Shown one piece after another: positions 7,932 to 64,000 of a stretch of DNA of 64,000 nucleotides (positions are counted from its first letter, which is position 1; the number at the start of each line of letters is the position of its first letter). Origin of the DNA: Bacteroidota bacterium (GTDB taxonomy: Bacteria; Bacteroidota; Bacteroidia; Cytophagales; Cyclobacteriaceae); NCBI GenBank assembly GCA_016178785.1, contig JACOSO010000043.1, positions 62,001 through 126,000 on the forward strand, given 5' to 3'. The position numbers were made by a program, and so were the translations under genes. The notes under the pieces were generated by a model that saw only the letters and a program-made list of their open reading frames with translations, was not told the DNA's origin and searched no databases.

Positions 7932-8024
7932 GCACCAAAAATAGGAATTCAAAGCGGAATTATTGATTTAGCCGAATCAGTTTGCCTATGAGATCAAAAA
8001 ATTTTCTATTTCTGCGAATTGTTT

Positions 8025-8032
8025 TACTTTTG
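8025..8032 (+). promoter_or_regulatory. -7 promoter element of tRNA-Phe
   Basis: TACTTTTG is a perfect TAnnTTTG, 35 bases before the tRNA 5' end. No clear TTG is seen 17-23 bases upstream. Confidence 0.5.
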
Positions 8033-8067
8033 CGTCCCGCTTTGATAAAAAGTGGCTGTTTTTCCCT

Positions 8068-8140
8068 GGTGACGTAGCTCAGTTGGTAGAGCAAAGGACT
8101 GAAAATCCTTGTGTCGGGGGTTCAATTCCCTCCGTCACCA
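8068..8140 (+). tRNA. tRNA-Phe (GAA)
   Basis: A 73-base cloverleaf. The acceptor stem GGTGACG pairs with CGTCACC, with discriminator A. D arm GCTC/GAGC, anticodon arm AAGGA/TCCTT with loop CTGAAAA giving anticodon GAA, and T arm with loop TTCAATT. The CCA end is not encoded (CTT follows). Confidence 0.97.
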
Positions 8141-8150
8141 CTTTAAAATC

Positions 8151-8183
8151 AAATGCTGACTTAAAAAGGTTGGCATTTTTTAT
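8151..8183 (+). terminator. Intrinsic terminator after tRNA-Phe
   Basis: A 10-bp stem with two G-T pairs, AAATGCTGAC (8151-8160) with GTTGGCATTT (8169-8178), followed by a T-rich tail. It starts 10 bases after the tRNA and separates it from the convergent dnaE gene. Confidence 0.65.
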
Positions 8184-8200
8184 TTGTTTCCATTTCAATT

Positions 8201-11200
8201 TTAAAATCTGCCCTCTTTAAAACTTTCCGCGGGCAATTGTTTTTTATTAATCAGCGATAGCTTGTCCATCCAGGCAACCTCAATCATCGCTACCCCAAAG
8301 TCTTCCACCACCCTTCCTTTGATTTCGTAAAAACCTCTCCCGCGAAAGGGGAATCTTGCAGTCACATCGGGGAAATGCACGGTATCAAAAACCTGCCCTT
8401 CACAGTCGTAAAATGTGCCAAAATGCATGGCCTGCCCACTTTTGGTGCGTGTGTCTTTCGTGGTGACTAAATAGCCTACAATGGTGACATTGTTTTTTAT
8501 TTTATCCATTAACTCAAGAGCTCGGCTATCGCCATAATCTTTGGTGGTCAGTAATTGAAAAGGATCGCACAGTGGGAAACCAAGCAATTCGATTTCGTCA
8601 AACGCATCTTCAATATCATTGCGTTCGAGTGCAGGCATCGGGTATTCTTTGGGCTCGGTGTCAAACAAATTAGCTGTAGTAGCCACCCGCACTTTCACTT
8701 CGCTGAAAAAAAGCATTGTCTCCCAAAGCAACCGCTGTTTGTTTTTTTCAGTGAATCGAAACGCACCGATGCGGATCAATATCCGCACTTGCTCCAAGCC
8801 AAGGGCAACACGTGTGAGAAAATTGTTCAGACTTCTGAATTCTCCATTTCGATTTCGCTCGATGGCAATCTGCTGCCCGACTTTTGTTTCCAAACTTTTC
8901 AAGTGAACGAAGCCGATGTAAATCTGATCTTCATAAATGGTGGTGAGGTATTCACTTTTATTGACACACGGCAACTCGATCTGCGCGCCATTCATGCGCG
9001 CTTCATGAAAATAAAATTCAGTGCGATAGAAGCCACCAAAATTGTTGATCACTCCTACCATAAATTCCAACGGGTAGTGCGCCTTCAAAAACAAACTTTG
9101 ATAACTTTCAACAGCATAGCTGGCCGAGTGACCCTTGGCAAAAGAATAGCCTGCAAAACTTTCAATTTCAAACCACACACGGTCAGTCACTTTTTGTTCA
9201 TAGCCTCGTTCTTGGCATCCCTCAAAGAACCTTTCCTTTACTCGCTGGAATTCTTCGCGCGAGCGATACTTGCCGCTCATGCCTCTCCGCAATACATCAG
9301 CTTCTGTGAGTGAGAGTCCCGCAAAATAATGGGCCACCCTGATTACATCCTCCTGATATACCATCACTCCATAAGTGTCATGCATGATCTCGTCCATCTT
9401 GGGATGGATGGATTCATAGGTTTTACCCTCGTGCACCGCATGAAATCGTTCAATGTATGTCTTCATCATCCCTGAACTCGCAACGCCCGGCCGAATGATT
9501 GAGCTCGCGGCTACCAAAGTCAGATAATCATCGCACCTTAATTTCCCCAATAGCATGCGCGTGGCAGGCGACTCCACGTAAAAGCAACCCATCGCCTTGC
9601 TGTGACGCATCAAATCTTTAATCTTCTCGTCTTCTTTGAATTTTTTGAACTGATAAACATCAACATCAACTCCTTTGTTTCTTTTGATATGCTTCACGGT
9701 TTCTTTGATATGACCGAGCCCGCGTTGGCTAAGAATATCAAACTTGTAAATGCCAAAGTCTTCGGCCGCATGCATTTCAAATTGCGACACAGGCAAACTC
9801 TTGGGGGGAAATTCAGTGGCTGTGTAATTGTAAATCGATTTTTCGGTGATGAGCACACCGCCTGCGTGAATGGAAATGTTGGCTGGCAATTCTTTTTTTA
9901 CGATGTAATCCGCATAGGCAATTACTTTTTGTGCAATGTGATCGCGCTCCATTTCCAAATGACGGTTGTCCACAAGAGAGTCAATTTCTTCTTTGGGCAA
10001 GCCAAAAACTTTTGCTAATTCTCGGAGGATCGATTTGCTCTGGTAAGTGACGTGTGTGCCCAGCAAACAAACGTGATCAGTGCCATATTTACTGAAGAGA
10101 TATTCATAGATCGCATCGCGATTATCCCATGAAAAATCGATGTCAAAATCGGGAGGGGAGACGCGCTCTTCGTTTAGGAATCGCTCAAAATATAAATCCA
10201 ATTCAATAGGGTCTACATTGGTGATACCTAAACAATAGGCCACTGTGCTGTTGGCTCCGCTGCCACGACCTACAAAATCAAACCCCTGACTTTTCGCGTG
10301 GTTGATGAGATCATAGGTGATGAGATAGTATGAAGTGAATTGTTTGTGAGCGATGATAGTGAGTTCTTTTTCGATACGTTCATTCCATATCTTTTTGTCA
10401 AGATCTTGTTTTTCATAAATTCGTTTGTAGCCTTCCTGTGTTCTTTCGCGGAGAATTTTCATGTCTTCCTCCACGCTCCCAAAAAAATGCTTCTTGTTTT
10501 TATCAACGCCCAATTCACATTCAATGGAACATTGATCTAAAAGTTTTTTAGCATTGACAAATAACTCAGGAAAATCCTCAAATCGTTTTTGCAACTCAGC
10601 TTCGGTAAGCATAAACTCCTCTCTGCGGGCCTGCTGCTGTTCTTGCAATTTGCTAAGCAATGTATTATTGGCAATGCAGCGCAAAAGCCGATGTGCATTG
10701 TGATCGCGGTAAACCAATTTTTCTTTTCCGGTCTTTGTGTCTTTGATTTTTTCCGGGGGCAAGAAAGTGACCGGATGAAGTGCTATGAGCTTGTGCATGT
10801 AACCTTTCCGCGAAGAATCAGCTGAGAAAAGATGGAGATCACCGCTGCGCACACCAACGTATTCGTTTGGCAAAAGCAGTTCGGGCTCAATTTTCTGATA
10901 AGGATAAACGACAAAAACATTTTCTATCTCAGGAGCGCGGGTTGGAAATTTTTCGTTCTTCTGATTGTGATAAGACAGAAAGCGGTTGAGTTTTTCGAAG
11001 CCGTCATTATTCTTTGCCAGAGCTATGTAGAGCAACTCATTTTCTTCCGACCTAAACTCAATACCTGCTGCAATGTTCAGATCATAAGGAATTTTTTCAA
11101 ATTTTGTTAATCCATTTGGGCGAGCTTTGTTTTCATCACAAATACGCAGCATCTCCAGATAGGAAGAGACATTGTTGATTTCGGTGATTGCAAGTTTATG

Positions 11201-11290
11201 AATGCCACAACGCTTGGCTTCGTTAAAAAGAATTTTGATCGGCAGGGTACCGTATTTGAAACTGAAGCCGGTGTGGCAGTTGAGATACAT
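8201..11290 (-). CDS. dnaE: DNA polymerase III alpha subunit, short DnaE type
   Basis: A 1029-residue C-family DNA polymerase, shorter than replicative DnaE (about 1160-1200 or more). The N-terminal PHP domain starts MYLNCHTGFSFKYGT; the usual HxH metal motif has Asn for its first His, so PHP nuclease activity is doubtful. The palm domain keeps all three catalytic Asp in PPDFDIDFSW (about residue 375) and GRGSGANSTVAYCLG. An OB-fold-like region ends the protein. Pol IV and RecQ lie within 7 kb. It is probably the second, repair-type DnaE (DnaE2-like) and not the replicase. This is inference from length and neighbours. Confidence 0.88.
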   Translation of the reverse strand: MYLNCHTGFSFKYGTLPIKILFNEAKRCGIHKLAITEINNVSSYLEMLRICDENKARPNGLTKFEKIPYDLNIAAGIEFRSEENELLYIALAKNNDGFEKLNRFLSYHNQKNEKFPTRAPEIENVFVVYPYQKIEPELLLPNEYVGVRSGDLHLFSADSSRKGYMHKLIALHPVTFLPPEKIKDTKTGKEKLVYRDHNAHRLLRCIANNTLLSKLQEQQQARREEFMLTEAELQKRFEDFPELFVNAKKLLDQCSIECELGVDKNKKHFFGSVEEDMKILRERTQEGYKRIYEKQDLDKKIWNERIEKELTIIAHKQFTSYYLITYDLINHAKSQGFDFVGRGSGANSTVAYCLGITNVDPIELDLYFERFLNEERVSPPDFDIDFSWDNRDAIYEYLFSKYGTDHVCLLGTHVTYQSKSILRELAKVFGLPKEEIDSLVDNRHLEMERDHIAQKVIAYADYIVKKELPANISIHAGGVLITEKSIYNYTATEFPPKSLPVSQFEMHAAEDFGIYKFDILSQRGLGHIKETVKHIKRNKGVDVDVYQFKKFKEDEKIKDLMRHSKAMGCFYVESPATRMLLGKLRCDDYLTLVAASSIIRPGVASSGMMKTYIERFHAVHEGKTYESIHPKMDEIMHDTYGVMVYQEDVIRVAHYFAGLSLTEADVLRRGMSGKYRSREEFQRVKERFFEGCQERGYEQKVTDRVWFEIESFAGYSFAKGHSASYAVESYQSLFLKAHYPLEFMVGVINNFGGFYRTEFYFHEARMNGAQIELPCVNKSEYLTTIYEDQIYIGFVHLKSLETKVGQQIAIERNRNGEFRSLNNFLTRVALGLEQVRILIRIGAFRFTEKNKQRLLWETMLFFSEVKVRVATTANLFDTEPKEYPMPALERNDIEDAFDEIELLGFPLCDPFQLLTTKDYGDSRALELMDKIKNNVTIVGYLVTTKDTRTKSGQAMHFGTFYDCEGQVFDTVHFPDVTARFPFRGRGFYEIKGRVVEDFGVAMIEVAWMDKLSLINKKQLPAESFKEGRF

Positions 11291-11307
11291 TTTTTTGTAC
11301 TTTTATC

Positions 11308-11315
11308 TACATTTG
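11308..11315 (+). promoter_or_regulatory. -7 promoter element before the antitoxin ATG
   Basis: TACATTTG is a perfect TAnnTTTG ending only 3 bases before the ATG at 11319, in the 28-base gap between divergent genes. If used, the transcript would be leaderless or nearly so. Confidence 0.4.
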
Positions 11316-11318
11316 AAT

Positions 11319-11483
11319 ATGGTTATTACGATAAAGAAAGGAGCCTCTCTCAACGAAATCAGGAAAGCGCTGGCCAAACTTGACAAGCAAAAGAAAAAGC
11401 ATTCTCTTAAAAAACACTTCGGAGCGTTGAAACGCGGACTTGATGGATTGACCTATCAAAAAGAAGCAAGGCGTGAATATTGA
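11319..11483 (+). CDS. Antitoxin of a PIN-type toxin-antitoxin pair
   Basis: A 54-residue Lys-rich protein. The start MVITIKKGASLNEIRKAL and the end GLDGLTYQKEARREY match the small Bacteroidota antitoxin family that precedes PIN toxins (family form: IKKG..., then ...QKxxRxEW). It overlaps the next frame by 11 bases, the normal antitoxin/toxin coupling. The toxin that follows is cut to 32 residues, so this antitoxin is orphaned. It could still act as a repressor or neutralise PIN toxins elsewhere. Divergent from dnaE. Family call is by eye. Confidence 0.65.
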   Translation: MVITIKKGASLNEIRKALAKLDKQKKKHSLKKHFGALKRGLDGLTYQKEARREY

Positions 11484-11571
11484 CTTTCTTGCGGATACAA
11501 ATATTTTAATCAATTTACTGGAAGGAGGTTTTTCAAGAATTGATGGCATCAATCTTCTGCTATTGGAGTGA
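11473..11571 (+). pseudogene. Truncated PIN-domain toxin remnant
   Basis: From GTG at 11473 the frame reads an N-terminus typical of a PIN ribonuclease, with the first catalytic Asp in DFLADTNILINLLEG. It then stops at 11569-11571 after 32 codons; intact PIN toxins are about 125-145 residues. The remaining three acidic residues are absent. The last 12 bases overlap the 3' end of recQ on the other strand, so the toxin was probably cut where this DNA joins recQ. A 32-residue PIN start cannot be active. Confidence 0.7.
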
Positions 11572-13686
11572 TCTCACCTTTTCTAGATGCGCCATCACCA
11601 TTCTTATTTCACCATAACTATAACTATCGCCCAGCAATTCTTTGATAGGGGCCAGAGCGTTACCTCCCGTTTTTTCAATGGCTTGTTGAATTGAACTGAT
11701 TTTTGAAGCATCGATTACTTCATTGAGGAGGAGTGTTCCTTGCTGCACATAAAATGCAAGATGACTTTCAATGGTGGATGAACTCAAGTTTCTACGTTCG
11801 GCTATTTCGGCAATGGAGTGTCCCAGCTTGAAAAACTCAAAACTCTTTTGTTTTGTATCGGTTTCTCTTTCAGGTCTTTCTCTTCTGATCCGCTTAGGTG
11901 TCTTCAGATTGATGCGAGATTTTAAATTATGCTCACGGCAGTAAGCAGCCACCACATCCCAAAATTGTTTTCCGTACTTCTCAATCTTTACCTGTCCGAA
12001 GCCGGAGATTTTCAGAAACTCTTCTTTGTTGTGGGGCAAGTAGGTAGCTAATTCTAAAAGTGTGGCATCGGATAATACAATGTAAGCAGGTACATTTTCT
12101 TCGTTGGCAATTTTCCTGCGTATATCTTTCAGTTGTTGGAGAAGTGTTTGCTCGTAATTTGCTTCCGGCTCGGCCACCTCTGTTATTTCTTTTGACTTGG
12201 TGATCATTACTTTTTCCAAACCCTTCAGCACAGCGGTACTCTTTTCTGTGAGTTGGAGGACAGGATACATCCCTTCTGATTTGACAAGATATCCCTGTGC
12301 CAACAAATCGCGGATGATGTTGTTCCATTCTTCCTTACTCACATCGGCACCGATGCCAAATGTTTTGAGTTGTTTGTGCTCCTCCTGGATCTTTGCAGAA
12401 TTGGATCCACGCAAAAAGTCGATTACATAACCGGCTCCAAATCGTTCTTGCAGGCGTGACACGGCAGATAAAACTTTTTGAGCGAGCAGTGTGCCATCAG
12501 TCAACTCGATGCGGGTGAGGCATACATCGCAATTGCCGCAATAATTCGTAGTTGCTTCATCGAAATAGTTCAACAAAAATTTTCTCCGACAAGTGGGGAG
12601 ATCGCCATACTCGGCCATCTGGTCCAGCTTCTTTAAGAAAACTTCCGTTTGCTCGGTGTTTCCATCCACCGTCACAAATCTTTTCATCTTCATCACATCG
12701 GCAAAAGAATAAAGTAGTAAAGCTTCGCTGTCCAGTCCATCGCGTCCTGCTCGTCCCGTTTCCTGATAATAACTTTCAATGTTTTTGGGTAAATCGGTAT
12801 GCACCACATATCGCACGTTTGATTTGTCGATGCCCATGCCAAAAGCGATCGTGGCCACCATGATTTTTACTTCATCGCGCAGAAATAATTCCTGATGCTT
12901 GGCGCGAATTTCTTTTTCTAATCCGGCATGGTAAGGAAGCGCATGAAAACCTTCATTTTTTAAATCTTCGGCAAGTCGTTCAGTAGATGCACGCGAGAGA
13001 CAATAGATGATTCCTGATTCATCTTTTCGTTTTTCGATAAAATCCAGAATTTTATCAAAACTGTTACGCTTGGGCACAACGGTGTAACGAATATTGCCAC
13101 GATTAAAACTTGAAATAAAGGTGGATGGATTATTCAACTCCAGCTTTTCAACAATGTCTTTTCTCGTGAGCTTGTCTGCCGTGGCGGTAAGTGCAATGAC
13201 GGGTACGCTTGGCAAGCTTTTTTTCAGATGAGCGAGATTCAAATACTCGGGCCTGAAATCATGACCCCAGTGAGAAATGCAATGCGCTTCGTCAATGGCG
13301 ATGAGACTTACATTGTATGATGAAAGCTGTTTGATGAAATTACTTTCTGGAGCGAGATAGAGCAGCTTCAATTCTTTGGCTTGTACCTTTTTCAGAATTT
13401 CATTTTGCTCTTGATAGCTCTGTGTAGAATTTAAAAACGCTGCGGCAATTCCATTCACGCGCAGTGCATCAACCTGATCTTTCATCAAAGCGATAAGAGG
13501 AGAGATCACCACTGTGAGTCCATCAAAAACCAAAGCAGGAATTTGGTAGCATAAGGATTTTCCCCCGCCTGTAGGCATGAGAGCAAACGTATCTTTTTTT
13601 TGCAGCACAGAATTAATGATCGCCTCTTGCTCTAAGCGAAAAGAACTGTAGCCAAATTTTTCTTTGAGGATGTGAAGGGGAGTCAT
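11560..13686 (-). CDS. recQ: ATP-dependent DNA helicase RecQ
   Basis: A 708-residue superfamily 2 helicase that unwinds DNA 3' to 5' in recombination repair. It has Walker A in MPTGGGKSLCYQ (about 38-48), the DEAH box in IAIDEAHCISHWGHDFR, and motif VI in QETGRAGRDG. A RecQ zinc-binding domain (CRRKFLLNYF, then CGNCDVC) and the RQC winged helix follow. An HRDC domain lies at about 505-590 and a C-terminal helix-turn-helix (LGHSIAEIAERRNLSSSTIESHL) at about 625-650, a layout common in Bacteroidota. ATG at 13686 fits the family; the extension to 13731 does not. Confidence 0.96.
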   Translation of the reverse strand: MTPLHILKEKFGYSSFRLEQEAIINSVLQKKDTFALMPTGGGKSLCYQIPALVFDGLTVVISPLIALMKDQVDALRVNGIAAAFLNSTQSYQEQNEILKKVQAKELKLLYLAPESNFIKQLSSYNVSLIAIDEAHCISHWGHDFRPEYLNLAHLKKSLPSVPVIALTATADKLTRKDIVEKLELNNPSTFISSFNRGNIRYTVVPKRNSFDKILDFIEKRKDESGIIYCLSRASTERLAEDLKNEGFHALPYHAGLEKEIRAKHQELFLRDEVKIMVATIAFGMGIDKSNVRYVVHTDLPKNIESYYQETGRAGRDGLDSEALLLYSFADVMKMKRFVTVDGNTEQTEVFLKKLDQMAEYGDLPTCRRKFLLNYFDEATTNYCGNCDVCLTRIELTDGTLLAQKVLSAVSRLQERFGAGYVIDFLRGSNSAKIQEEHKQLKTFGIGADVSKEEWNNIIRDLLAQGYLVKSEGMYPVLQLTEKSTAVLKGLEKVMITKSKEITEVAEPEANYEQTLLQQLKDIRRKIANEENVPAYIVLSDATLLELATYLPHNKEEFLKISGFGQVKIEKYGKQFWDVVAAYCREHNLKSRINLKTPKRIRRERPERETDTKQKSFEFFKLGHSIAEIAERRNLSSSTIESHLAFYVQQGTLLLNEVIDASKISSIQQAIEKTGGNALAPIKELLGDSYSYGEIRMVMAHLEKVRSLQ

Positions 13687-21579: not shown

Positions 21580-22545
21580 TTACCACCCCCCGCTGCTCCC
21601 ACCGCCACCAAAACTTCCTCCACCGCCAGAGAAACTGCTGCCTCCGCTGCTCCAACTTGAACTGCTGCCACTGCTCCATCCGCTCAACCAACTTGAACCC
21701 GATGACCCTCCACTAGACGTGCCCCATTTTTTCATTTTCTCCTTTCCCCAACCTGTACGGCCCAGAACAATTTTCAAAATCGGCATCCCGATGATGTAAA
21801 CAATTAGCAAGCCGATACCGGCAGTTGTGCCAATTACAATCCATGGGAAAAAAGCATAAAACGGAATAAGAAATGCGTATAACCCCCAACCTGCGCAACC
21901 TTGCGAGAAGACGGCAATCAATGTAAAGACGCCTAGAATGACGAAGAGGAAAAGGCCAACGAAAATTCGTTCAGTTATCGTTAAATCTTCCGATGAATCT
22001 ATATCATCGGCTTTATACTCCCCACCAATCGCCTTTATGATAGCATCTATTCCAGCGATTACGCCTGCATTATAATCGTTTCTGCGAAATGCGGGAGCAA
22101 GTTCATTGCGAATGATACGGCTGCTTTGGGCATCTGTTAGAACTCCTTCCAACCCTTGACCAACTTCAATGCGCATTTTGTGATCATCAACTGCGATGAG
22201 AAGTAATACGCCATTGTCTTTTTCTTTTTTCCCCAGCTTCCATTTTTCGACTACACGAATAGAGTAATTTTCAATCACGTCCCCACCCAAAGACTGAATA
22301 ATCAAAATTGCAATCTGATTGGATGTTGAATCTTCATAAGCCTTGAGATTTTTTTCGAGTTGATCAACCGTGGCTTGCTGAAGCACGTGTGCTTCGTCAT
22401 GCACGCGCTGGCCCCAGAGTTCGGGAACGGCTTTTTGAGCAGACAAGGGAATAGTCAGCAGTAAGCAGAATGCAGTAGGCAGAAAAATCTTCAATCGACT
22501 ACGTACTGCCTCCTGCCAACTGCCTACTTTGAAAAATATCATCAT
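21580..22545 (-). CDS. TPM-domain protein with Gly/Ser-rich tail (YgcG-like)
   Basis: About 321 residues: signal peptide ending at LSAQ, a TPM domain (VHDEAHVLQQATVDQLEKNL to about residue 175, with IRVVEKWKLGKKEKDNGVLLL and RIEVGQGLEGVLTD), two or three membrane helices, and a tail very rich in Gly, Ser and Trp. TPM proteins in this layout face the periplasm; a role in photosystem repair or phosphatase activity is known only for plant members. The signal-peptide region is encoded by a heptad-periodic repeat (22453-22531), so the N-terminus may have been rebuilt from it. ATG at 22545 or 22542; the frame's TTG at 22566 lies within the previous gene. Confidence 0.85.
   Translation of the reverse strand: MMIFFKVGSWQEAVRSRLKIFLPTAFCLLLTIPLSAQKAVPELWGQRVHDEAHVLQQATVDQLEKNLKAYEDSTSNQIAILIIQSLGGDVIENYSIRVVEKWKLGKKEKDNGVLLLIAVDDHKMRIEVGQGLEGVLTDAQSSRIIRNELAPAFRRNDYNAGVIAGIDAIIKAIGGEYKADDIDSSEDLTITERIFVGLFLFVILGVFTLIAVFSQGCAGWGLYAFLIPFYAFFPWIVIGTTAGIGLLIVYIIGMPILKIVLGRTGWGKEKMKKWGTSSGGSSGSSWLSGWSSGSSSSWSSGGSSFSGGGGSFGGGGSSGGW
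22453..22531. repeat. Heptad-periodic inverted-arm repeat inside TPM gene
   Basis: On the plus strand the left arm has 7-base units ending GC (such as AGTAAGC, AGTAGGC; 22453-22487). After about 16 bases the right arm has units ending GCC (TACTGCC, TCCTGCC, AACTGCC; 22504-22531). GTAGGCAG (22475-22482) and CTGCCTAC (22520-22527) are exact complements. The element encodes the n-region and hydrophobic core of the signal peptide. Confidence 0.65.
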
Positions 22546-41710: not shown

Positions 41711-42235
41711 ATGAGATACCATCCAGCAAGCCAATTTATTGGATGCATCACCTTAATAATGGTTGGCTGGATTTTATTGTTGTCTTCTTGTGCAAACCGG
41801 CCCATCCCCCAGCCCCCCCCTGCTTATATATTAATAAGCATTTTTTATAAAACATCAGGCGGTGTAGATTTATTAAACCCCAGCTCACAAAATTCCTTTA
41901 AAAAAAAGGACCTGAATGTGATAAGTAAAATTAATATCAATGGTGAAGTGAAGGAAATGCAATTCAACGGCAATGAGAATGGCATCGATATTGGTGTGGA
42001 TGGCACCACTAGTTTCAATTATTTCGAGCTTGCAGTTCCCACGAATGCCGGGGTAACCCCAATCGCAACGTACATTCGACTCAGCCCTTCAATAACAGAT
42101 ACTGTCACCTACTCATTTTCCAGTCCAAAGTATCCCTATTTTCCCGATAAGATTTATTACAATAAGTCATTAGTCTGGGAAATTATTAATACTAAACCTA
42201 ATGGTTTTTGGCCATCGATAACCATAATCAAATAG
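41711..42235 (+). CDS. Hypothetical lipoprotein with poly-C tract
   Basis: A 174-residue lipoprotein (LLLSSC) starting 34 bases after the protease stop. After the lipid Cys comes a Pro-rich stretch (RPIPQPPPA) encoded partly by eight C in a row, then a beta-rich domain (about 50-174) with no recognised motif. It may be linked to the protease upstream, since C10 proteases are often followed by inhibitor genes, but no Spi-like motif is seen. A slip in the C run would shift the frame. Unrecognised family. Confidence 0.65.
   Translation: MRYHPASQFIGCITLIMVGWILLLSSCANRPIPQPPPAYILISIFYKTSGGVDLLNPSSQNSFKKKDLNVISKININGEVKEMQFNGNENGIDIGVDGTTSFNYFELAVPTNAGVTPIATYIRLSPSITDTVTYSFSSPKYPYFPDKIYYNKSLVWEIINTKPNGFWPSITIIK
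41813..41820 (+). repeat. Poly-C tract (8 C) inside lipoprotein gene
   Basis: Eight C in a row, with five more C just before (41806-41810), 34 codons after the ATG. A run of this length in a moderate-GC genome is a candidate slippage site. Confidence 0.6.
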
Positions 42236-42315
42236 AACGCTGCGATCCTTTATACTTTTCAGCTAGCCAGGAGAGAATTAAAACTTAGCTTCGTTCATGA
42301 AGGCATTTCGTACTT

Positions 42316-42858
42316 TCACTTTATCGAGATTTTTTCAGGAACCAAACTTGCCGTTGAGAATTTCCTCTTCAAGAGGAGTAAATCGCTCTGTGCCTCGAGC
42401 CTCGTAAAATACCTGCCAACAATCACCCGAAATTTAGGCTGTTCGTATTTAACACTTGCAGTTAACTCTGGCACTTCTTCTTTCATTTTCTTCATTGCGT
42501 TCATCGCATCTTCTTTCTTCTGTCCTGAATAAATTTGAATGGTAAACCCATCCAGGAACTTGCGTGTAAGATTAAATCGATCGATGCTGTCAAGCACGAC
42601 ATCTACTTTCGCATTGATATTTTTTGTGGGGCTAACCTCATGCTTAATTTCTTTAACCGTATCATTTTTTTTGGATTCGACAGGCAATTCCACTTTTGGT
42701 CTTAGCTTCGAAAGATCTTCGTAATAAGGCTTACCGTTTTTTTGAGCAACGGATGAGCAGCTTGTAACGATAAAGAATACAGGAGTCAGAATGAAGAATT
42801 TAGAATAGCGCTGGAGCCATTCTGTATTCTGTATTCTGATTTCTGACTTCTTTTCCAT
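42316..42858 (-). CDS. SPOR-domain lipoprotein
   Basis: About 180 residues. A long basic N-terminus and a hydrophobic core end at VTSC, a lipobox. A linker rich in Lys/Glu/Val is followed by a SPOR domain (about 105-180: GFTIQIYSGQKKEDAMNAM, then FRVIVGRYFTRLEAQ), which binds denuded septal peptidoglycan. The N-terminal region through the signal core is encoded by a heptad repeat (42773-42852). Its ATG shares bases with the secA stop (42858), with a second ATG at 42861. Confidence 0.85.
   Translation of the reverse strand: MEKKSEIRIQNTEWLQRYSKFFILTPVFFIVTSCSSVAQKNGKPYYEDLSKLRPKVELPVESKKNDTVKEIKHEVSPTKNINAKVDVVLDSIDRFNLTRKFLDGFTIQIYSGQKKEDAMNAMKKMKEEVPELTASVKYEQPKFRVIVGRYFTRLEAQSDLLLLKRKFSTASLVPEKISIK
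42773..42852. repeat. Heptad-periodic inverted-arm repeat inside SPOR gene
   Basis: On the plus strand the left arm has five 7-base units around AGAAT (such as CAGAATG, TAGAATA; 42773-42807). A 10-base spacer is followed by five units around ATTCTG (CATTCTG, TATTCTG twice; 42818-42852). The arms are reverse complements as words. It covers most of the signal-peptide code. Confidence 0.7.
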
Positions 42859-45800
42859 CATCCTTCAATCACAATACAACGACCATTCTTAATATCTTCT
42901 TCAACTTTCTTGTACTTCACGTCTTTCATCACGCGGCCATCGGGGTATTGCACACTTACTTTATCATTGCGATTAGCAATTTTTTCAGATCGCACAGGCA
43001 TTACTTTTTCCTGAACGTGCTGCTCCGCTTGCTGCGCGTGTCCTCCCCCTTGCAAAAGTGACCTCGATTCATCTTTTTGCTCGCGCAGTTTCTGACGTTT
43101 CTGTGCCTGGGCTTCGTGTACTTCATCTGGTTCTTGCACAGGAATTTCTGCTTTCATCAGGAAAGAAACGGTTTCCTCATTCACCTTTGAAATGAACCTT
43201 TTAAAGGCTTCGAAGCCTTCAAACTTATAAATCAGCAATGGATCTTTCTGTTCATACACCGCATTTTGCACTGATTGTTTTAAATCGTCCATGTCGCGTA
43301 GGTGTTCTTTCCAATTTTGGTCAATGATTGAGAGTGTAATCATCTTCTCCATTGATTTGATCAACTCTTCATTGTTGGTGCTGACACATTTTTTCAAATC
43401 GGCAGCTACACCAATTTGCTTTGATCCTTCAGAGAACGGTACTAGCACTTCATGTATTGTGGCACCTCGTGTTTTGTAGATATCATTGATGATCGGCATC
43501 GCCTTTTGTGCGATGAGTTTATTTTTGTGTTCGTAGTGCTTCAGTGTTTCATCATACAAGCGCTCAGCCAGTACATTCTGCTCAGCTTTGCTAAATTCTT
43601 CCGTAGTAATGTGAAAATCAATCCCCAACGTGCTTAGTACATTCAATTTAAAGTTTTCAAAATTCTCACCTGCCTTTGCATTCGCCACAATGTCATCACA
43701 AGTGTCGAAGAGCATGGTAAGAATGTCGAGCTGTAACCGTTCACCAAACAATGCATTTTTTCTTCGCTTGTAAATCACCTCGCGCTGGGAGTTCATCACG
43801 TTATCATATTCCAACAAACGCTTACGAATGCCGAAGTTATTTTCTTCCACTTTTTTCTGAGCGCGCTCAATTGAATTCGTGACCATCGAATGCTGGATCA
43901 CTTCGCCCTCTTTGAGACCAAGTCTGTCCATGATCCGCGCAATGCGCTCAGGCATGAACAAACGCATCAGGTTGTCTTCCAGAGAAACATAAAAACTCGA
44001 AGTACCCGGATCGCCCTGACGACCGCTTCGTCCCCGCAACTGTCGATCAACTCTTCGCGATTCGTGACGCTCCGTACCAATGATGGCAAGTCCACCTGCA
44101 GCCCGAGATTCTGGCGTAAGTTTAATATCGGTACCACGACCTGCCATGTTTGTGGCAATTGTTACCGTGCTCGGCTTACCTGCTTCGGCAACGATCTCGG
44201 CCTCGCGCTGGTGTTGCTTCGCGTTAAGTACATTGTGCTTAATCTTTTTCATCTGGAGCATGCGGCTCACTAATTCTGAAATTTCCACTGAAGTAGTACC
44301 AACAAGTACAGGTCTTCCTTCCTGTGTAAGCCTAACAATTTCTTCAATTACAGCAGTGAATTTTTCACGAACAGTTTTGTAAACCATATCATCGTGATCT
44401 TTTCGGGTAACTGGCCTGTTTGTTGGGATTACAACCACATCGAGTTTGTAGATGTCCCAAAGTTCACCGGCTTCTGTTTCTGCTGTACCTGTCATGCCCG
44501 CAAGCTTGTGGTACATCCGGAAATAATTTTGCAGCGTGATTGTGGCATATGTCTGTGTAGCATCTTCCACTTTCACATTTTCCTTCGCTTCAATCGCTTG
44601 GTGCAAACCGTCTGAATACCTGCGACCATCCAGCACACGGCCTGTCTGCTCATCGACAATTTTTACTTTTCCATCAACAATGATGTACTCCGTATCTTTT
44701 TCAAATAGCGTGTAGGCTTTCAATAATTGATTTACGCTATGAATACGCTGTGACTTAGTGTTGTAGTCGCGAATCAATTCATCCTTCTTGTGAAGTTTGA
44801 TGTCATCTGCTAGTGTCGGGTCTTTTTCAATTTTGCTTAGCTCAGTACCGATCTCGGGAAGAATAAAGAACTTCGGATCTTCCCCTTCACCCGTGATTAG
44901 GTCAATTCCCTTTTCCGTTAACTCAACGCTGTTGTCTTTTTCATCAATGACGAAATAGAGCGGAGCATCGGCATTGGGCATTTCTTTTTTATTGTCTTGC
45001 AAATAAAAATTCTCTGTCTTCTGAAGTACTGCCTTGTTACCCGTTTCGCTAAGTGCCTTAATCAATGGCTTGTATTTTGGCATCGCCCGGAAAGCACGGA
45101 ATAAAGGAAGGCCACCTTCTTTGTCGTTGCCATCGCTTAATAATTTCTTCGCATCATTGAGGTATTGGTTTACCAGCTTCTTTTGAGCTTCAACCACTTT
45201 ATTGATGCGTGGTTTCAAATCGTAAAACTCATGTTCATCTCCACGGGGAATTGGGCCGGAAATAATCAATGGAGTTCGTGCCTCATCAATCAAAACACTA
45301 TCTACCTCATCGACCATGGCGTAATGATGGCCGCGTTGCACCAGCTCTTGAGGATCGCGAGCCATGTTGTCGCGCAGGTAATCGAAGCCAAATTCGTTGT
45401 TGGTTCCGTAAACGATATCGGCACGGTATGCTTTTTTTCTCTCGTCTGAGTTCGGTTCATGTTTGTCGATGCAGTCAACATTCAATCCATGAAACTGGAA
45501 GATAGGCCCCATCCATTCGCTATCACGTCTGGCGAGGTAATCGTTGACGGTTACGATATGAACTCCGCGTTTAGCAAGAGCATTTAAAAATGCGGGGAAC
45601 GTAGCCACCAAAGTTTTTCCTTCACCCGTAGCCATCTCTGCTACTTTACCTTCGTGCAACGCAATGCCACCGATGATCTGCACATCGTAATGAACCATGT
45701 CCCAGGTCATCAAATTGCCTGCAGCCATCCATTGTCTGCTCCATTGGGCTTTATCGCCTGCAATTTTTACGTTCGAGTGTGTGGCAGCCATCTCGCGATC

Positions 45801-46205
45801 AAACTCCGTTGCTGTTACTTCAAGGTATTCATTTTCCTTAAAGCGTTTTGCTGTTTCGCGAATGATCGCAAAAGCCAACGGCAAAACTTCAACCAAAACT
45901 TTTTCAAGTTCCTTATTGCGCTCAAGTTCGGCTTTATCAATTTGAGAAAAGACAAATTCCTTTTCGTTGATGTGAAGTTCAGGTTGGTCGGCTATGCGCT
46001 GATGAAAGCTTGCGATTTGCTCATCGATCAGTTTCAATTTGGAGTTGATATAGTCTTGAATTTCGATGGTTTTGTTTCGCAATTCATCGTTGGAAATTGA
46101 AACTAAATTCTCCCCTTCTTTTTTGGTTTGTTCAACCAGCGGAGTCATCCGCTTGATGTCTTTTTCCGACTTCGATCCGAAGATTTTTGCGATCAGTTTG
46201 AGCAT
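42858..46205 (-). CDS. secA: Preprotein translocase ATPase SecA
   Basis: A 1115-residue SecA, about 215 longer than E. coli SecA, with extra helical insertions (about 320-400 and others) as in other Bacteroidota. Walker A is EMATGEGKTLVA, the DEAD-like motif is VDEVDSVLIDEARTPLIISG, and GTERHESRRVDRQLRGRSGRQGDPG covers motifs V-VI. The C-terminus (NRNDKVSVQYPDGRVMKDVKYKKV, ending VIEG) lacks the four-ligand zinc tail that binds SecB. The 5' leader holds an 11-unit heptad repeat. Confidence 0.97.
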   Translation of the reverse strand: MLKLIAKIFGSKSEKDIKRMTPLVEQTKKEGENLVSISNDELRNKTIEIQDYINSKLKLIDEQIASFHQRIADQPELHINEKEFVFSQIDKAELERNKELEKVLVEVLPLAFAIIRETAKRFKENEYLEVTATEFDREMAATHSNVKIAGDKAQWSRQWMAAGNLMTWDMVHYDVQIIGGIALHEGKVAEMATGEGKTLVATFPAFLNALAKRGVHIVTVNDYLARRDSEWMGPIFQFHGLNVDCIDKHEPNSDERKKAYRADIVYGTNNEFGFDYLRDNMARDPQELVQRGHHYAMVDEVDSVLIDEARTPLIISGPIPRGDEHEFYDLKPRINKVVEAQKKLVNQYLNDAKKLLSDGNDKEGGLPLFRAFRAMPKYKPLIKALSETGNKAVLQKTENFYLQDNKKEMPNADAPLYFVIDEKDNSVELTEKGIDLITGEGEDPKFFILPEIGTELSKIEKDPTLADDIKLHKKDELIRDYNTKSQRIHSVNQLLKAYTLFEKDTEYIIVDGKVKIVDEQTGRVLDGRRYSDGLHQAIEAKENVKVEDATQTYATITLQNYFRMYHKLAGMTGTAETEAGELWDIYKLDVVVIPTNRPVTRKDHDDMVYKTVREKFTAVIEEIVRLTQEGRPVLVGTTSVEISELVSRMLQMKKIKHNVLNAKQHQREAEIVAEAGKPSTVTIATNMAGRGTDIKLTPESRAAGGLAIIGTERHESRRVDRQLRGRSGRQGDPGTSSFYVSLEDNLMRLFMPERIARIMDRLGLKEGEVIQHSMVTNSIERAQKKVEENNFGIRKRLLEYDNVMNSQREVIYKRRKNALFGERLQLDILTMLFDTCDDIVANAKAGENFENFKLNVLSTLGIDFHITTEEFSKAEQNVLAERLYDETLKHYEHKNKLIAQKAMPIINDIYKTRGATIHEVLVPFSEGSKQIGVAADLKKCVSTNNEELIKSMEKMITLSIIDQNWKEHLRDMDDLKQSVQNAVYEQKDPLLIYKFEGFEAFKRFISKVNEETVSFLMKAEIPVQEPDEVHEAQAQKRQKLREQKDESRSLLQGGGHAQQAEQHVQEKVMPVRSEKIANRNDKVSVQYPDGRVMKDVKYKKVEEDIKNGRCIVIEG

Positions 46206-46212
46206 TGGGTAC

Positions 46213-46289
46213 GTTAATCGTTATTGGTTACTTATTAGTCGTTTTGCGTGCCCATTAACGGATAACGCTTAACGCTTAACTTTTAACAG
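46213..46289. repeat. Eleven-unit heptad repeat with inverted arms
   Basis: A run of exactly 11 consecutive 7-base units (77 bases) without phase break. The left four or five fit GTTAnnn (GTTAATC, GTTATTG, GTTACTT), the right five fit TTAACnn (ATAACGC, TTAACGC, TTAACTT). The arms are reverse-complement words around two spacer units. It fills most of the gap between dapF and secA and would lie in the secA leader. Confidence 0.75.
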
Positions 46290-46316
46290 GTAAAATTAAG
46301 TTTTTTAAAGAAGCAA

Positions 46317-47090
46317 TTATAACTCCAGAACACCCTCGAATACCATTTTGGCCGGACCGATCAGGAAAATATCGGTAAATGAGCCATCATGTCGCAAATT
46401 GAATTCGACAGATAGTTCTCCGCCCAGTGTTTTGACAGTTACAGGAGAGGAATATTGATGGAATGAAGAGGCTAAAGCAGCCGCAGTTACGCCCGTTCCG
46501 CATGAAAGTGTTTCGTCTTCAACACCTCGTTCATATGTGCGAACAAAAATAGAATTGTTGCCAAGCAGTTCTATGAAATTAGCATTCGTGCCCTTAGGTT
46601 TGAAGTTTTCGCTATGGCGGATTTTTTTCCCTTCTTCAAAAACAGGAAAGATTTTCACTTCATTAACGAATTGAACGAAGTGGGGTGAACCTGTATTGAT
46701 GAAAAAATTCTTGTCCAGTTTTTTCACTTCTTTAACATCGTTCATTTTCAACCTCACATTTCCGTTTTGAAGCAAGTCGGCTTCATGCAAGCCATCATAC
46801 GCGTTGAATTTTGCTTTACCGTTGACCAGGCCCAGCGAAGAAGCCACCCTCACGGCCGCACGACTGCCATTGCCACAAAGGCTTGCCGAACCATCGGCAT
46901 TGTAATAAACCAAATTAAAATCAAGTGAGGGATGTTTTTCGATCAGCATAATGCCATCTGCACCAACGCCAAATTTGCGATCACAGATTTTTTTTATTTG
47001 ATCGACTGAGAAAGAATATTTCGCATCTCGATTGTCAACGATGACAAAATCGTTGCCCGTGGCTTGATATTTTTGGAAAGAGAATTTCAT
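46317..47090 (-). CDS. dapF: Diaminopimelate epimerase
   Basis: A 257-residue enzyme converting LL- to meso-diaminopimelate for peptidoglycan and lysine. Both catalytic Cys are present, in SLCGNGSRAAV and ETLSCGTGVTAAA. MKFSFQKYQATGNDFVIVDN is the standard start, so ATG at 47090 was chosen over the extension to 47105. It lies 18 bases after the stop of the caspase-TPR gene. Confidence 0.95.
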   Translation of the reverse strand: MKFSFQKYQATGNDFVIVDNRDAKYSFSVDQIKKICDRKFGVGADGIMLIEKHPSLDFNLVYYNADGSASLCGNGSRAAVRVASSLGLVNGKAKFNAYDGLHEADLLQNGNVRLKMNDVKEVKKLDKNFFINTGSPHFVQFVNEVKIFPVFEEGKKIRHSENFKPKGTNANFIELLGNNSIFVRTYERGVEDETLSCGTGVTAAALASSFHQYSSPVTVKTLGGELSVEFNLRHDGSFTDIFLIGPAKMVFEGVLEL

Positions 47091-47108
47091 GTAGAAAAAA
47101 AACAAATA

Positions 47109-49361
47109 TTACTTGAAGTTGGTTGCTTTGAATTCAGTGTATTTGGTGTTTTTAGGATCTAACTCGATGGCTTTATTGATGTCGGCAAGTGCAAGATCGT
47201 TTTGCCCAGTATAAAAATAGGAGTTGCATCGATAATAATATGCCTCTGAAAAATCAGACTTTAGTGCGATCACTTGCGAATAATCCTTTATTGCATTCGG
47301 ATCCAGCTTCAGGGCATAATAGGAATTGCCTCTCCAATAATAATAATTGTGCGCATTCGACCCCGATGGATCTAATCCAATTGATTTGGTAAAATCAGGA
47401 ATTGCCTCCGCATATATTTTAAGATTGTAGTATGATTTACCGCGATAATAATAATAGTTAGCCGCGTAAGTACTAGTCTGATCTAATTCAATTGATTTTG
47501 TCAAATCAGTTATAGCCTCAGCATAGTTTTGTAAGTTATACTTGCAAAGTCCTCGCCAATAATACGTATCTGCAGCAGGCATCAGCGCTATGCTTTGATC
47601 AAAATCGAGGATTGCTTCCTCGTCCTTTGCTAAACCATACTTTGCGTTACCTCGATAATAAAATGCGTCCGCATGCTGCGGATTAATATTAATTGTTTTA
47701 GAGAAAAGCGTTATTGCCGTTTCATAATTTTTTTGAACAAAAGCTACCATGCCTTGCCAGTAATACGCATCGGAATAACTGGGTTTTAGGTCACTGGTCT
47801 TTGTAAAATCGTTGATTGCTTCATCGTATCGCTCTAGGTTGTATTTTACCTTGCCTCGATAAAAATAAGCATCAGCATAATCGGGTTTTTGGAGAATTGC
47901 TGCGTCAAAATTCTTAATAGCATCAGAATACTTCTTTAATGAGAAATAGGCATTGGCTTTCCAATACATTGCTTCTGCATCATTGGGCCTTGCTAATAGA
48001 GTTTTGTTATAGTCAGCAATTGCTTCATCATATTTTTTTTGACTGTAATAGGCTTGTCCGCGCCAGAAAATAGCATCCGGATAATCAGGTTTTATCTGTA
48101 AAGCCTTGTTGTAATTCTCAATGGCTTTGTCATCTTGTGCAAGGTCGTATTGAGTCTTTGCCTTCCAATAGTAAGCCTCTGCATAATCCGGCTTTAACGA
48201 AATAGCATTACTATAATCGGACAGCGCTTTATCATCTTGACGGACTGCGTAATAGGCATTACCTCGCCAATAAAAAGATTCATGAGCTTTTGGATTTATT
48301 TGAATGGCAGTGCTATAATCTTCGATTGCTTTTTCGTAGTCAGGAATAGAATAATAAGAGTTTCCTCGCCAATGGTAAGCGTCAACATACACTGGATTGA
48401 GTTGAATGGCTTTGGAAAATTCCTGAATTGCTTTTTCATTTTTATAAGCGTCATATGAAATCTTGCCCTGCGCAAAAAATATTTCTGCTTGAGTCTTGTC
48501 CCCCTCAGACACCTTGATATTCTTTAAATCAACATGACCCCTTGAAAGGGCATCCTGCTTTTGCGAAGTTTCATTTGAAGCAATTATTGTGGTTGATGCA
48601 TCAGCCTTTGAACCTTTGCCCAAATAAAAATCTTCACCTGTAAGTGACGTGGTCTCCCATGGAATCTGAGCCCCCCCCGACTTGTCGCTCACTTCATTTC
48701 GCACTTGCTTGAAGACCTGCTCAATGGTGAGCGAAGGATTTCGCATGAACTTAAGGAGGGCACTGGTATAAAGTCCATTGGAAGATTCGCCATCAGAGGC
48801 AGTGCGGCCGGGAGAAGTAGCGTAAGCGATCAGGGAACCTTTAGGTGCATCCATCATGGCCAAACCTCCACCACCTGTGCTTCTTTGCCAACTGCGTGCA
48901 AAAGGGTTGTTGCGACAAGCATCAAGAACAATCAAGTTTATTTTAGTAGAAGCTGCGTCCATGAATGCAAGCACCCGATCGGCCGCCACGCAATCGAATT
49001 CAATTTCTTCTTCGGCTTTAAGGTCTGCTTCAACAGGTACCATGTAGTTCACACCTTTCGATTGAACACCATGACCAGCGTAGTAGAACAAGCCCACATC
49101 ATAATCTTTCAGTTTAAGCCCAAAAGCATTAATAGCCTGTTTCATTTGAGCTTGATTGACATCTTCACTCTCCATCACCTCAAATCCCAGACCGCGAAGC
49201 GAGCTTGCAATTGCACGAGCATCGTTAACGGGGTTTTTGAGCGCATTTACACTTTGGTAATGTGCGTTTCCAATGACCAGCGCAAGTCTTTTTTGGTTAG
49301 TCTGGGCTGATCCATAAAACGAAATAAGCGCAACAGAGCTTATGAGAAAAAACTTTTTCAT
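47109..49361 (-). CDS. Secreted caspase-like (C14) protease with 13 TPR repeats
   Basis: A 750-residue protein. The signal peptide ends GSAQ (about residue 20). A caspase p20-like domain (about 23-255) has catalytic His97 in LFYYAGHGVQ and Cys149 in IVLDACRNNPFAR. From about 290 to the end run 13 TPR units of about 34 residues with the Tyr/Trp-rich pattern YYWRGNxYYxxxxYxxAIxDY. Caspase-type domains of this kind (with MVPVEADL, TSPGRTASDG) occur in many bacteria and may be proteases with Arg/Lys specificity. Periplasmic location and the very long repeat arm suggest protein-protein docking; the target is unknown. Confidence 0.88.
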   Translation of the reverse strand: MKKFFLISSVALISFYGSAQTNQKRLALVIGNAHYQSVNALKNPVNDARAIASSLRGLGFEVMESEDVNQAQMKQAINAFGLKLKDYDVGLFYYAGHGVQSKGVNYMVPVEADLKAEEEIEFDCVAADRVLAFMDAASTKINLIVLDACRNNPFARSWQRSTGGGGLAMMDAPKGSLIAYATSPGRTASDGESSNGLYTSALLKFMRNPSLTIEQVFKQVRNEVSDKSGGAQIPWETTSLTGEDFYLGKGSKADASTTIIASNETSQKQDALSRGHVDLKNIKVSEGDKTQAEIFFAQGKISYDAYKNEKAIQEFSKAIQLNPVYVDAYHWRGNSYYSIPDYEKAIEDYSTAIQINPKAHESFYWRGNAYYAVRQDDKALSDYSNAISLKPDYAEAYYWKAKTQYDLAQDDKAIENYNKALQIKPDYPDAIFWRGQAYYSQKKYDEAIADYNKTLLARPNDAEAMYWKANAYFSLKKYSDAIKNFDAAILQKPDYADAYFYRGKVKYNLERYDEAINDFTKTSDLKPSYSDAYYWQGMVAFVQKNYETAITLFSKTININPQHADAFYYRGNAKYGLAKDEEAILDFDQSIALMPAADTYYWRGLCKYNLQNYAEAITDLTKSIELDQTSTYAANYYYYRGKSYYNLKIYAEAIPDFTKSIGLDPSGSNAHNYYYWRGNSYYALKLDPNAIKDYSQVIALKSDFSEAYYYRCNSYFYTGQNDLALADINKAIELDPKNTKYTEFKATNFK

Positions 49362-63079: not shown

Positions 63080-64000
63080 ATGCGTTTACGATTTCTTTTT
63101 AATGCCATTTTACTTTTTGTTCCGACAACATTCTCATTCGCGCAAATACTGAAACCAGCCAAGTGGACTCACGAGGTTTCGACTAAAGAAGCAAAGGCAG
63201 GCGATGAAATCACGCTGATATTTAAAGCCACGATTGATCAGAACTGGTATTTGTATTCATCAGAATTTCCGTGCGAAGACCCGATTAAAATGACGCTTAG
63301 TTTTCAACCGGATAAAAGTTATTCACTGGTTGGAGGCATCGAGGCGATCAATCCTATTGACAAACACGACAAGATCTTTGAATGTGATGTAAAGATTTTT
63401 AAAGACAAAGCTGAGTTCCGCCAAAAAATAAAAGTGCTCAGTTCTCCTCTCAAAATTTCAGGCAACTATGAATATCAAGTCTGCACTGAACTCACAGGGC
63501 AGTGTGTGCCAGGAGAGGGAGAGTTTTCTTTTGGCAATATTAAAGTGGAGGGAGACACAAAGTTCAAAGTTCAAAATTCAAAGTTGGACGACCCGAAGGC
63601 CCAATCCCTAATGCCTAAGTTACAAGACTTGCGCACAAAGGTTGATTCAGCAAAGGCTCAAAGTTCTAAGAGCATGACGTACGGTGAAGTAAAAGGCCCG
63701 CAACTCGACCCTTCGCTTATTAAAACGGATGGAAAACAAAATTCATTCTTTGGATTTTTTCTGCTGGCTTTCTTAGCCGGGCTTGCAGCGCTGCTTACAC
63801 CTTGTGTTTTCCCTATGATCCCGATGACAGTAAGTTTCTTCACGGGTCGTGGCACTAAATTTCAAGCGTTGATATATGGTGTTTCGATCATTGTCATTTA
63901 CACAGTCATTGGCGCGGTGCTCGCCCCACTCATGGGGCCGGAAACAGCCAATCATCTTTCAACGGAATGGCTGCCTAATCTGATTTTCTTTTCCGTGTTC
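63080..64000 (+). CDS. dsbD: Thiol:disulfide interchange protein DsbD, 5' part
   Basis: The first 307 codons of a gene that runs off the window. Signal peptide (ending SFAQ), then an alpha-type thiol domain with Cys pair CTELTGQC, a linker, and the start of the membrane domain (LAGLAALLTPCVFPMIPMTVSFF), whose Cys carries electrons from cytoplasmic thioredoxin. More helices and a C-terminal thioredoxin domain are expected beyond 64000. The linker contains four 7-base units (63557-63584), coding KFKVQNSK. It lies 97 bases after pdxJ. Confidence 0.93.
   Translation, partial: MRLRFLFNAILLFVPTTFSFAQILKPAKWTHEVSTKEAKAGDEITLIFKATIDQNWYLYSSEFPCEDPIKMTLSFQPDKSYSLVGGIEAINPIDKHDKIFECDVKIFKDKAEFRQKIKVLSSPLKISGNYEYQVCTELTGQCVPGEGEFSFGNIKVEGDTKFKVQNSKLDDPKAQSLMPKLQDLRTKVDSAKAQSSKSMTYGEVKGPQLDPSLIKTDGKQNSFFGFFLLAFLAGLAALLTPCVFPMIPMTVSFFTGRGTKFQALIYGVSIIVIYTVIGAVLAPLMGPETANHLSTEWLPNLIFFSVF
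63557..63584 (+). repeat. Four-unit heptad repeat in the dsbD linker
   Basis: Four exact-phase 7-base units fitting nCAAAnT (ACAAAGT, TCAAAGT, TCAAAAT, TCAAAGT), translated in frame within a flexible linker. No inverted arm is seen. Confidence 0.6.

Follow-up and report, generated by a model that had tools for sequence, protein, structure and literature searches.

Intergenic two-armed degenerate heptad elements in a Cyclobacteriaceae genome and in other Bacteroidota

The 77 bp at positions 46213–46289 of the window, the 64,000-nucleotide stretch of DNA that we analyzed, belong to a family of degenerate heptad elements that have two arms and lie between genes. The segment reads GTTAATC GTTATTG GTTACTT ATTAGTC GTTTTGC GTGCCCA TTAACGG ATAACGC TTAACGC TTAACTT TTAACAG. 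Its identity at lag 7 is 0.60, as compared to 0.15–0.31 at the other lags between 2 and 13, and it reaches 0.51 at lag 14 and 0.50 at lag 21; TRF picks up part of the right arm (46255–46280) with a period of 7. The initial annotation described eleven consecutive units of exactly 7 bases, with left units fitting GTTAnnn and right units fitting TTAACnn. We found that the division and the period hold for this segment, while the word is carried by 8 of the 11 units, namely units 1–3 and units 7–11, one of which is ATAACGC. The left arm (46213–46230, minus strand) consists of three GTTANNN units, which are minus-strand TAAC cores, and the right arm (46256–46289, plus strand) of five TAACNNN units with plus-strand cores at 46256, 46263, 46270, 46277, and 46284. 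A spacer of 25 bp (46231–46255), with two or three degenerate units inside, separates the innermost cores. Because units 4–6 are largely spacer, the unbroken phase over eleven units is partly luck, and the exact division is not a rule of the family: across 30 elements, the arms lay 14–76 bp apart, by eye, in no fixed phase.

The element is flanked by secA (42858–46205, minus strand), which starts 7 bp off the left arm, and by its upstream neighbor dapF (46317–47105, minus strand), both gene names being those of the initial annotation. A TTATAATTGC block (46313–46322, minus strand) is common to most relatives at this gap, as judged by eye, and is probably the secA promoter; the element sits between this block and the start of secA. 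Orthologues of secA were present in 36 of the 36 same-genus genomes searched. A search of Rfam with 42000–48000 gave no match at E ≤ 1.

We evaluated the abundance of such arrays in the genome. The query TTAACNNTTAACNNTTAAC, a triple TTAAC heptad with at most one mismatch allowed, had 57 + 56 matches in 4.47 Mb, as compared to 2 + 2 for the reversed control. A lag scan of 464 kb (the window and 20 grid stretches) detected 27 lag-7 places with at least 26 of 42 matches against 1 in one third-order Markov sequence; the other lags from 4 to 16 gave 0–5 places each, save lag 14 with 13. A strong lag-7 stretch was found in 38 of the 260 gaps that measured 45 bp or more, while the other lags scored in 0–6, with lag 8 as the runner-up (6/260), and shuffled gaps in none. 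When only the grid stretches were counted, leaving out the window and the stretches fetched for TAAC, the figure was 35 of 232 gaps, with 0–6 for lags 5, 6, and 8–11. The reading of the initial annotation is supported in so far as there is a dispersed class of elements with a 7-bp step, inverted arms, and a variable third in each unit, far commoner than in shuffled sequence.

The class is not confined to one word, as the lag-7 gaps contained TAAC, TTGAA, CTGCC, CCTAAT, TTCTGA, GGTAAC, GACTAT, and other heptads. The window alone holds four elements, and secA is flanked by one on each side. The second element, across secA (42774–42853), has AGAATNN on the left and ATTCTGN on the right, and the third (22454–22528) has GCAGTAN and CTGCCNN. 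The fourth (63557–63620) has unlike arms, CAAAGTT four times on the left and CCCAATC CCTAATG CCTAAG on the right. Elsewhere in the same genome, a TAAC element carries a TTTCAGN array in its spacer and looks nested (C85:30361–30473). Gaps with inverted arms in 8-base steps, e.g., TGTTGAAG TGTTGATG and so on, were seen by eye after batA in two relatives (L208 of G031 and L226 of G005) and in the genome itself (C96:18547–18758).

The anatomy was analyzed on TAAC arms collected from 723 kb in 49 merged stretches, some of which had been fetched for holding TAAC matches; arms with fewer than three perfect cores were left out. We found 74 arms, 37 per strand, while a reversed-core control gave 1 array. 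Four units were present in 39 arms, three in 22, and five to seven in 13, so that 52 of the 74 had at least four. Fourteen arms were single. Each of the 30 pairs of arms no more than 150 bp apart ran minus then plus, with GTTANNN at the left and TAACNNN at the right. The three variable positions lean to G/T, A, and T/A, with GAT, TAT, GAA, TAA, and GGA as the commonest triplets. In a word-blind analysis of 17 gaps, the word of one arm recurred inverted in the other: the mean Hamming distance between arms was 1.82 in inverted orientation, as compared to 3.18 for permuted partners and 2.59 in direct orientation.

The variable bases are independent between units and between arms. Neighboring units shared 1.25 of the 3 variable bases against 1.46 for random pairs, and full identity was likewise slightly rarer (0.096 versus 0.123). 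Neighbors are therefore not copies of each other, and the initial annotation was right that a plain tandem repeat does not explain the segment; its suggestion of maintenance in 7-base steps fails in so far as slippage is meant, and the same test led us to reject slippage for TAAC arrays. Left and right variants were not mirrored in TAAC elements (1.44 shared bases of 3 against 1.42; p = 0.55 at the best register) nor, beyond the word itself, across all words (mean z of 0.16; p < 0.05 in 1 of 25 gaps), and we therefore rejected the idea that one arm is copied from the other through a hairpin. The exceptions are a CTGCC gap of this genome (C85:14479) and, by eye, another genome of the phylum (G047), in which left and right variants are equal. 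The numbers of units in the two arms were uncorrelated (Spearman 0.13, p = 0.49), and the spacers compared across the elements of this genome were unrelated, with no whole-element copying seen among them.

The arms also showed a compositional bias. Read toward the gene, C exceeded G in 53 of 78 arms and fell below it in 17 (53 of the 70 unequal arms), so that the outward strand is the G-richer one. Counted by word cluster, the skew was found in 10 of 13 (two-sided p = 0.09); the largest cluster, with 24 TTGAA-like arms, lacked it and had slightly more G.

Next to the genes, the elements leave little room. With open reading frames (ORFs) of at least 90 amino acids called by a simple script, both arms lay within 15 bp of the neighboring ORFs in 19 of 30 elements and at least one arm in 27 of 30, and a heptad element often fills the whole gap. 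Of the 26 strong lag-7 places, 22 were intergenic and 4 within ORFs. Occupancy was similar in divergent (8/56), convergent (3/31), and tandem gaps (27/173; chi-square p = 0.72), on which basis we rejected a promoter and an intrinsic terminator, the latter being expected to favor the ends of genes and to be scarce in divergent gaps. In the gap after sdhB (C85, L011), a TAAC element and a tRNA-Gln(ttg) gene stand together.

Comparison with relatives demonstrated that elements come, go, and change in orthologous gaps. The distance between secA and dapF could be measured in 20 relatives of the same genus, and 18 of them lacked a strong array there (best 28-base score ≤15). In the closest relative at SecA (G031, 93%), the gap is 65 bp long, while a Chryseolinea metagenome-assembled genome (L082, SecA 80%) has a TAAC element there with several units per arm, by eye. 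Near secA in the 20 relatives, lag 7 was found in 2 of 141 gaps and the other lags in none. Pieces of eleven housekeeping genes were then sought in five relatives. The sdhA–sdhB gap contains arrays of 92–108 bp in this genome, G003, and G005, and is 34 bp with no element in G031 and G001. The accC element has a clear homologue in G003, and the uvrB right arm is recognizable in four relatives. In the pyk gap, four relatives with the conserved neighbor scored 13, 18, 20, and 15 at lag 7; other words were present in G001 (TTGAACC) and, by eye, in G003 and G012, and a TAAC-like word in G005. Overall, 11 of 29 orthologous gaps scored at least 16, as compared to 0 of 26 background gaps (p = 3.5e-4), and 7 of 22 did so without G003, which had no background stretch (p = 0.002). 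A unique and conserved protein-binding array, the case against which the initial annotation had set its reading, is contradicted by this comparison.

Where homologous elements could be aligned (of 20 alignments, 11 passed the threshold of z > 4, covering 7 of 12 loci), core identity was 295/342 (0.863) and variable identity 139/217 (0.641), i.e., divergences of 0.14 and 0.36. We dropped purifying selection on the core as an explanation, since the picking of intact cores in one genome predicts a core divergence of about half that of the variable bases. Because the observed ratio is close to that produced by such picking alone, we argue that the variants were present from the birth of an element.

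The elements extend beyond this genome. Within the genus, TAAC match counts ranged from 0 to 128 and were patchy among relatives. In 12 genomes picked for high counts or kinship, matches to the GTTA..TAAC pattern, several of which may belong to one element, numbered 61, 41, 20, 18, 18, 17, 12, 11, 4, 2, 1, and 0; the opposite arrangement gave 0 in 11 genomes and 3 in one. The control equaled or exceeded the two-arm count in G052 and G047, and reversed control words were plentiful also in the relatives G037, G054, and G027; we read these high control counts as probably reflecting other heptad words. Exact fourfold TAAC heptads were present in 47 of 148 genomes of the phylum and in 29 of 82 genera. 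At 80 named Bacteroidota dapF loci, lag-7 stretches were detected in 22 of 455 gaps, as compared to 1–5 for other lags. Heptads other than TAAC, among them TTGAANN, CTGCCNN, and CCTAATN, make up gaps of this kind in many Bacteroidota. Long perfect arrays of TAACCGC, TAACTGA, TAACTCA, GCTCCAT, and TTCCGAC were also found elsewhere, and two single gaps held long near-perfect runs (L099 4857–5076, GCTCCAA turning to GCTCCAT; L139 1442–1569, CTTCCGA). Amid DapF hits from Bacteroidota, one with 51% identity to the query came from a record titled as an Actinomyces viscosus metagenome-assembled genome (L138), which is probably a mislabeled bin.

A scan of viral contigs found 24 stretches on 23 contigs with 3 + 3 units, and 6 in the opposite direction, of which five were near-perfect GTTAACC arrays that match both directions. 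One viral contig had five elements, four of them between consecutive ORFs of the head block (terminase, head-tail connector, capsid). The capsid relatives belong mostly to Vibrio and Pelagibacter phages for contig L269 and mostly to Streptococcus and other Gram-positive phages for L277; hosts outside Bacteroidota are therefore likely for these phages, judging from capsid sequence. On L269, two TAAC elements (6529–6583 and 7396–7450) have an identical 34-bp center and different outer units, and two ORFs (7469–8953 and 9135–12671) contain many copies of a repeat like SPDGSLLAIAHTTSPYVTIYNTSDWSKVTDPGTLPTG.

Several described systems resemble parts of this anatomy. The short tandemly repeated repetitive (STRR) sequences of cyanobacteria are intergenic heptanucleotide repeats of several words, as are the arrays here, but they are near-perfect tandems and, to our knowledge, have no inverted arms; the signature of slippage expected of STRR-like repeats, neighbors more alike than random, was the reverse of what we found. 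REP and REPIN elements with their RAYT transposases are, like the present elements, short intergenic inverted repeats with many copies per genome. We know of no 7-bp step in REPs, and the Y1_Tnp family is missing from the TAAC-rich genome G015.

Heptad repeats have been published for Bacteroidota, where the initial annotation knew of no inverted-arm heptad element. In the accessible part of the report of MacGregor (2015), TAACTGA direct repeats are described from Beggiatoaceae, Cyanobacteria, and five Bacteroidetes; most of those in F. litoralis stand in forward orientation ahead of a start codon, with one reversed case directly behind a stop codon, and that text gives no mechanism for the spread between phyla (PMC4679880). 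These repeats share with ours a TAAC-containing heptad, the intergenic location next to start codons, a reversed set after a stop codon, and a patchy distribution, and the TAAC arrays here are likewise forward before and reversed after the gene, in 30 of 30 pairs. In contrast, they are described as one-word direct repeats, with one indirect repeat in one genome, while our elements are degenerate, paired in inverted arms, and of many words; TGA appears once among the 25 commonest variable triplets. The P6b stem of the Nostoc trnL (UAA) group I intron also has two degenerate-heptad arms, with alternative classes (TDNGATT and NNTGAGT) at one place and repeated shifts between them, as far as the accessible texts describe it (PMC4476775, PMC3488679). 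That stem lies within one intron and pairs in structured RNA, whereas the present elements are intergenic, genome-wide, and found in all gene orientations; they have the complementary degenerate arms and lack the pairing kept unit by unit, with unmirrored variants and no match in Rfam. The omega2/parS sites of pSM19035 are contiguous 7-bp units with variable ends in direct and inverted orientation, four being needed for full function, yet the accessible text describes a few plasmid sites, overlapping promoters and bound by a known RHH protein (PMC9499535), while our elements are genome-wide. A search of the literature, with subscription papers mostly outside its reach, found no two-armed degenerate heptad elements in Bacteroidota gaps. 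Thus, the nearest known systems (the P6b stem, the TAACTGA arrays, and omega2/parS) each match one part of the anatomy and fail another.

As to the origin of the elements, we tentatively favor, as a possibility short of probable, that each 3′ end of an intergenic break was extended with the same degenerate heptad before the ends were joined. An intergenic gap would be broken or resected, leaving two 3′ ends; both would be lengthened 5′ to 3′ with one heptad of loose specification that leans to G/T, GTTANNN in this case, and the lengthened ends would be joined. The left arm would then show the added strand and the right arm the complementary one. The element would afterward be inherited, decay, and be replaceable by one of another word. 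A candidate for the extender is a polymerase with re-priming on the 4–5 constant bases at each 7-nt step, using its own short template or other arrays. The reading of the two arms would follow from the outward course of the added strand from each gene. The geometry of such extension would by itself yield a shared inverted word, a fixed direction, and independent variants and arm lengths, and it would also cover unrelated spacers, the lost ancestral gap, the freedom of gene orientation, and the many words. The fixed direction speaks for it, as do the signs of independent arm synthesis (unmirrored variants, uncorrelated unit numbers, unrelated spacers), the less-alike neighbors, the presence of the variants from the birth of an element, the G-richer outward strand, and the sdhA–sdhB gap, where arrays stand in place of the 34 bp of two relatives.

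Counted against end extension are the absence of the C>G skew in the TTGAA-like cluster, together with its p value by cluster, the unlike arms of some gaps, and the recurrence in orthologous gaps, which needs recurring breaks or a change of word in place. The 34-bp center shared on the phage contig, the one case of its kind, looks like whole-element copying and not new synthesis. No break, extension, or enzyme behind the arms was observed among the sequences analyzed. As makers, a PF00078 reverse transcriptase and a Y1 transposase were each rejected, since neither tracks the arrays. Among genomes that look complete, G005 (97% complete, 27 TAAC matches) has no PF00078, and G015 (99% complete, 47 TAAC matches) has no Y1_Tnp (PF01797), which is present in the genome studied here and is also absent from G003 (77% complete), another genome with many TAAC arrays. 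Their rank correlations with TAAC counts were weakly positive (0.38 and 0.32), but genome size correlates with all three quantities (0.32, 0.50, and 0.42). The added strand may resemble irregular telomere repeats. In a more specific form of end extension, which we regard as speculative and rather improbable, a telomere-like activity in Bacteroidota and in the bacterial hosts of some phages of other groups would add degenerate heptads that lean to G/T at each 3′ end of an intergenic break, with the word set by the template of the lineage, and genomes would therefore carry layered, differently worded scars at gene borders.

An unlikely alternative to end extension, though one with several points in its favor, is that an arm consists of some four adjoining 7-bp binding sites of a protein that polymerizes on DNA, as omega2, the ParB of pSM19035, does on WATCACW heptads, with paralogues for the other words. 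A constant core with degenerate positions, independent units, and a fixed direction would suit such arrays, and the peak at four units per arm recalls the at least four contiguous heptads required for full ParA activation by omega2, according to the accessible text (PMC9499535). Occupancy independent of gene orientation is expected of a site acting at the level of DNA, and cores diverge less than variable bases; however, the latter difference is about what the picking of intact cores gives without selection, and alignment of array to array inflates core identity. The many words per genome, the different words in the pyk gap of related species, and the high turnover at housekeeping gaps argue against binding sites. 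No binding protein was found, and the control of the search for Omega_Repress (PF07764) matched nowhere.

It is also rather unlikely that the elements are hairpins under selection for their structure, with any word allowed. Since two arms of one word pair in any 7-nt register, RNA or single-stranded DNA would fold back whatever the variants. In the predicted folds of 25 of the 30 TAAC elements, more than half of the arms was paired, and the 30 elements folded far better than dinucleotide shuffles (mean z of −4.63, with 28 of 30 below −2; plus strand only). The P6b stem, with its two word classes and repeated class shifts, is a precedent in the accessible texts (PMC4476775, PMC3488679), and the different words of orthologous gaps and the position of phage elements beside capsid genes would fit. 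However, given the word, the unmirrored variants add nothing to folding (z of −0.17, SE of 0.13), and the initial annotation was right that a hairpin, in the sense of a maintained one, does not explain the segment. No fixed direction is required for a hairpin, and divergent gaps, in which outgoing transcripts need not hold both arms, are as occupied as the rest (8/56 versus 30/204).

That the arrays are neutral satellite DNA, made by polymerase slippage, spread by recombination, and tolerated only between genes, we consider quite doubtful. The patchy counts in the genus, the long perfect arrays found elsewhere, and the largely intergenic location agree with it, as does the report that heptanucleotides are the commonest 5–11 nt repeats in most surveyed genomes (Mrazek 2007, as quoted in the accessible part of PMC4679880), but slippage is not expected to give less-alike neighbors, a fixed direction, or arms of one word with unmirrored variants. 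All-frame stop codons (7 = 1 mod 3) fit TAAC and fail for the other words, with 2.42 inward against 2.34 outward stops per arm in 64 non-TAAC arms.

A lag-7 array is present in roughly every seventh gap of this genome (35/232 in the grid stretches), including gaps in housekeeping operons, and similar gaps are present across Bacteroidota and in phage contigs. Should the arms be products of synthesis at DNA ends, they would represent an unrecognized bacterial end-extension activity whose signature is readable in sequence; if they are bound by protein, a genome-wide binding system not previously known. Phage contigs with complete TAAC elements may be a vehicle for the spread of TAACTGA-type repeats between phyla.
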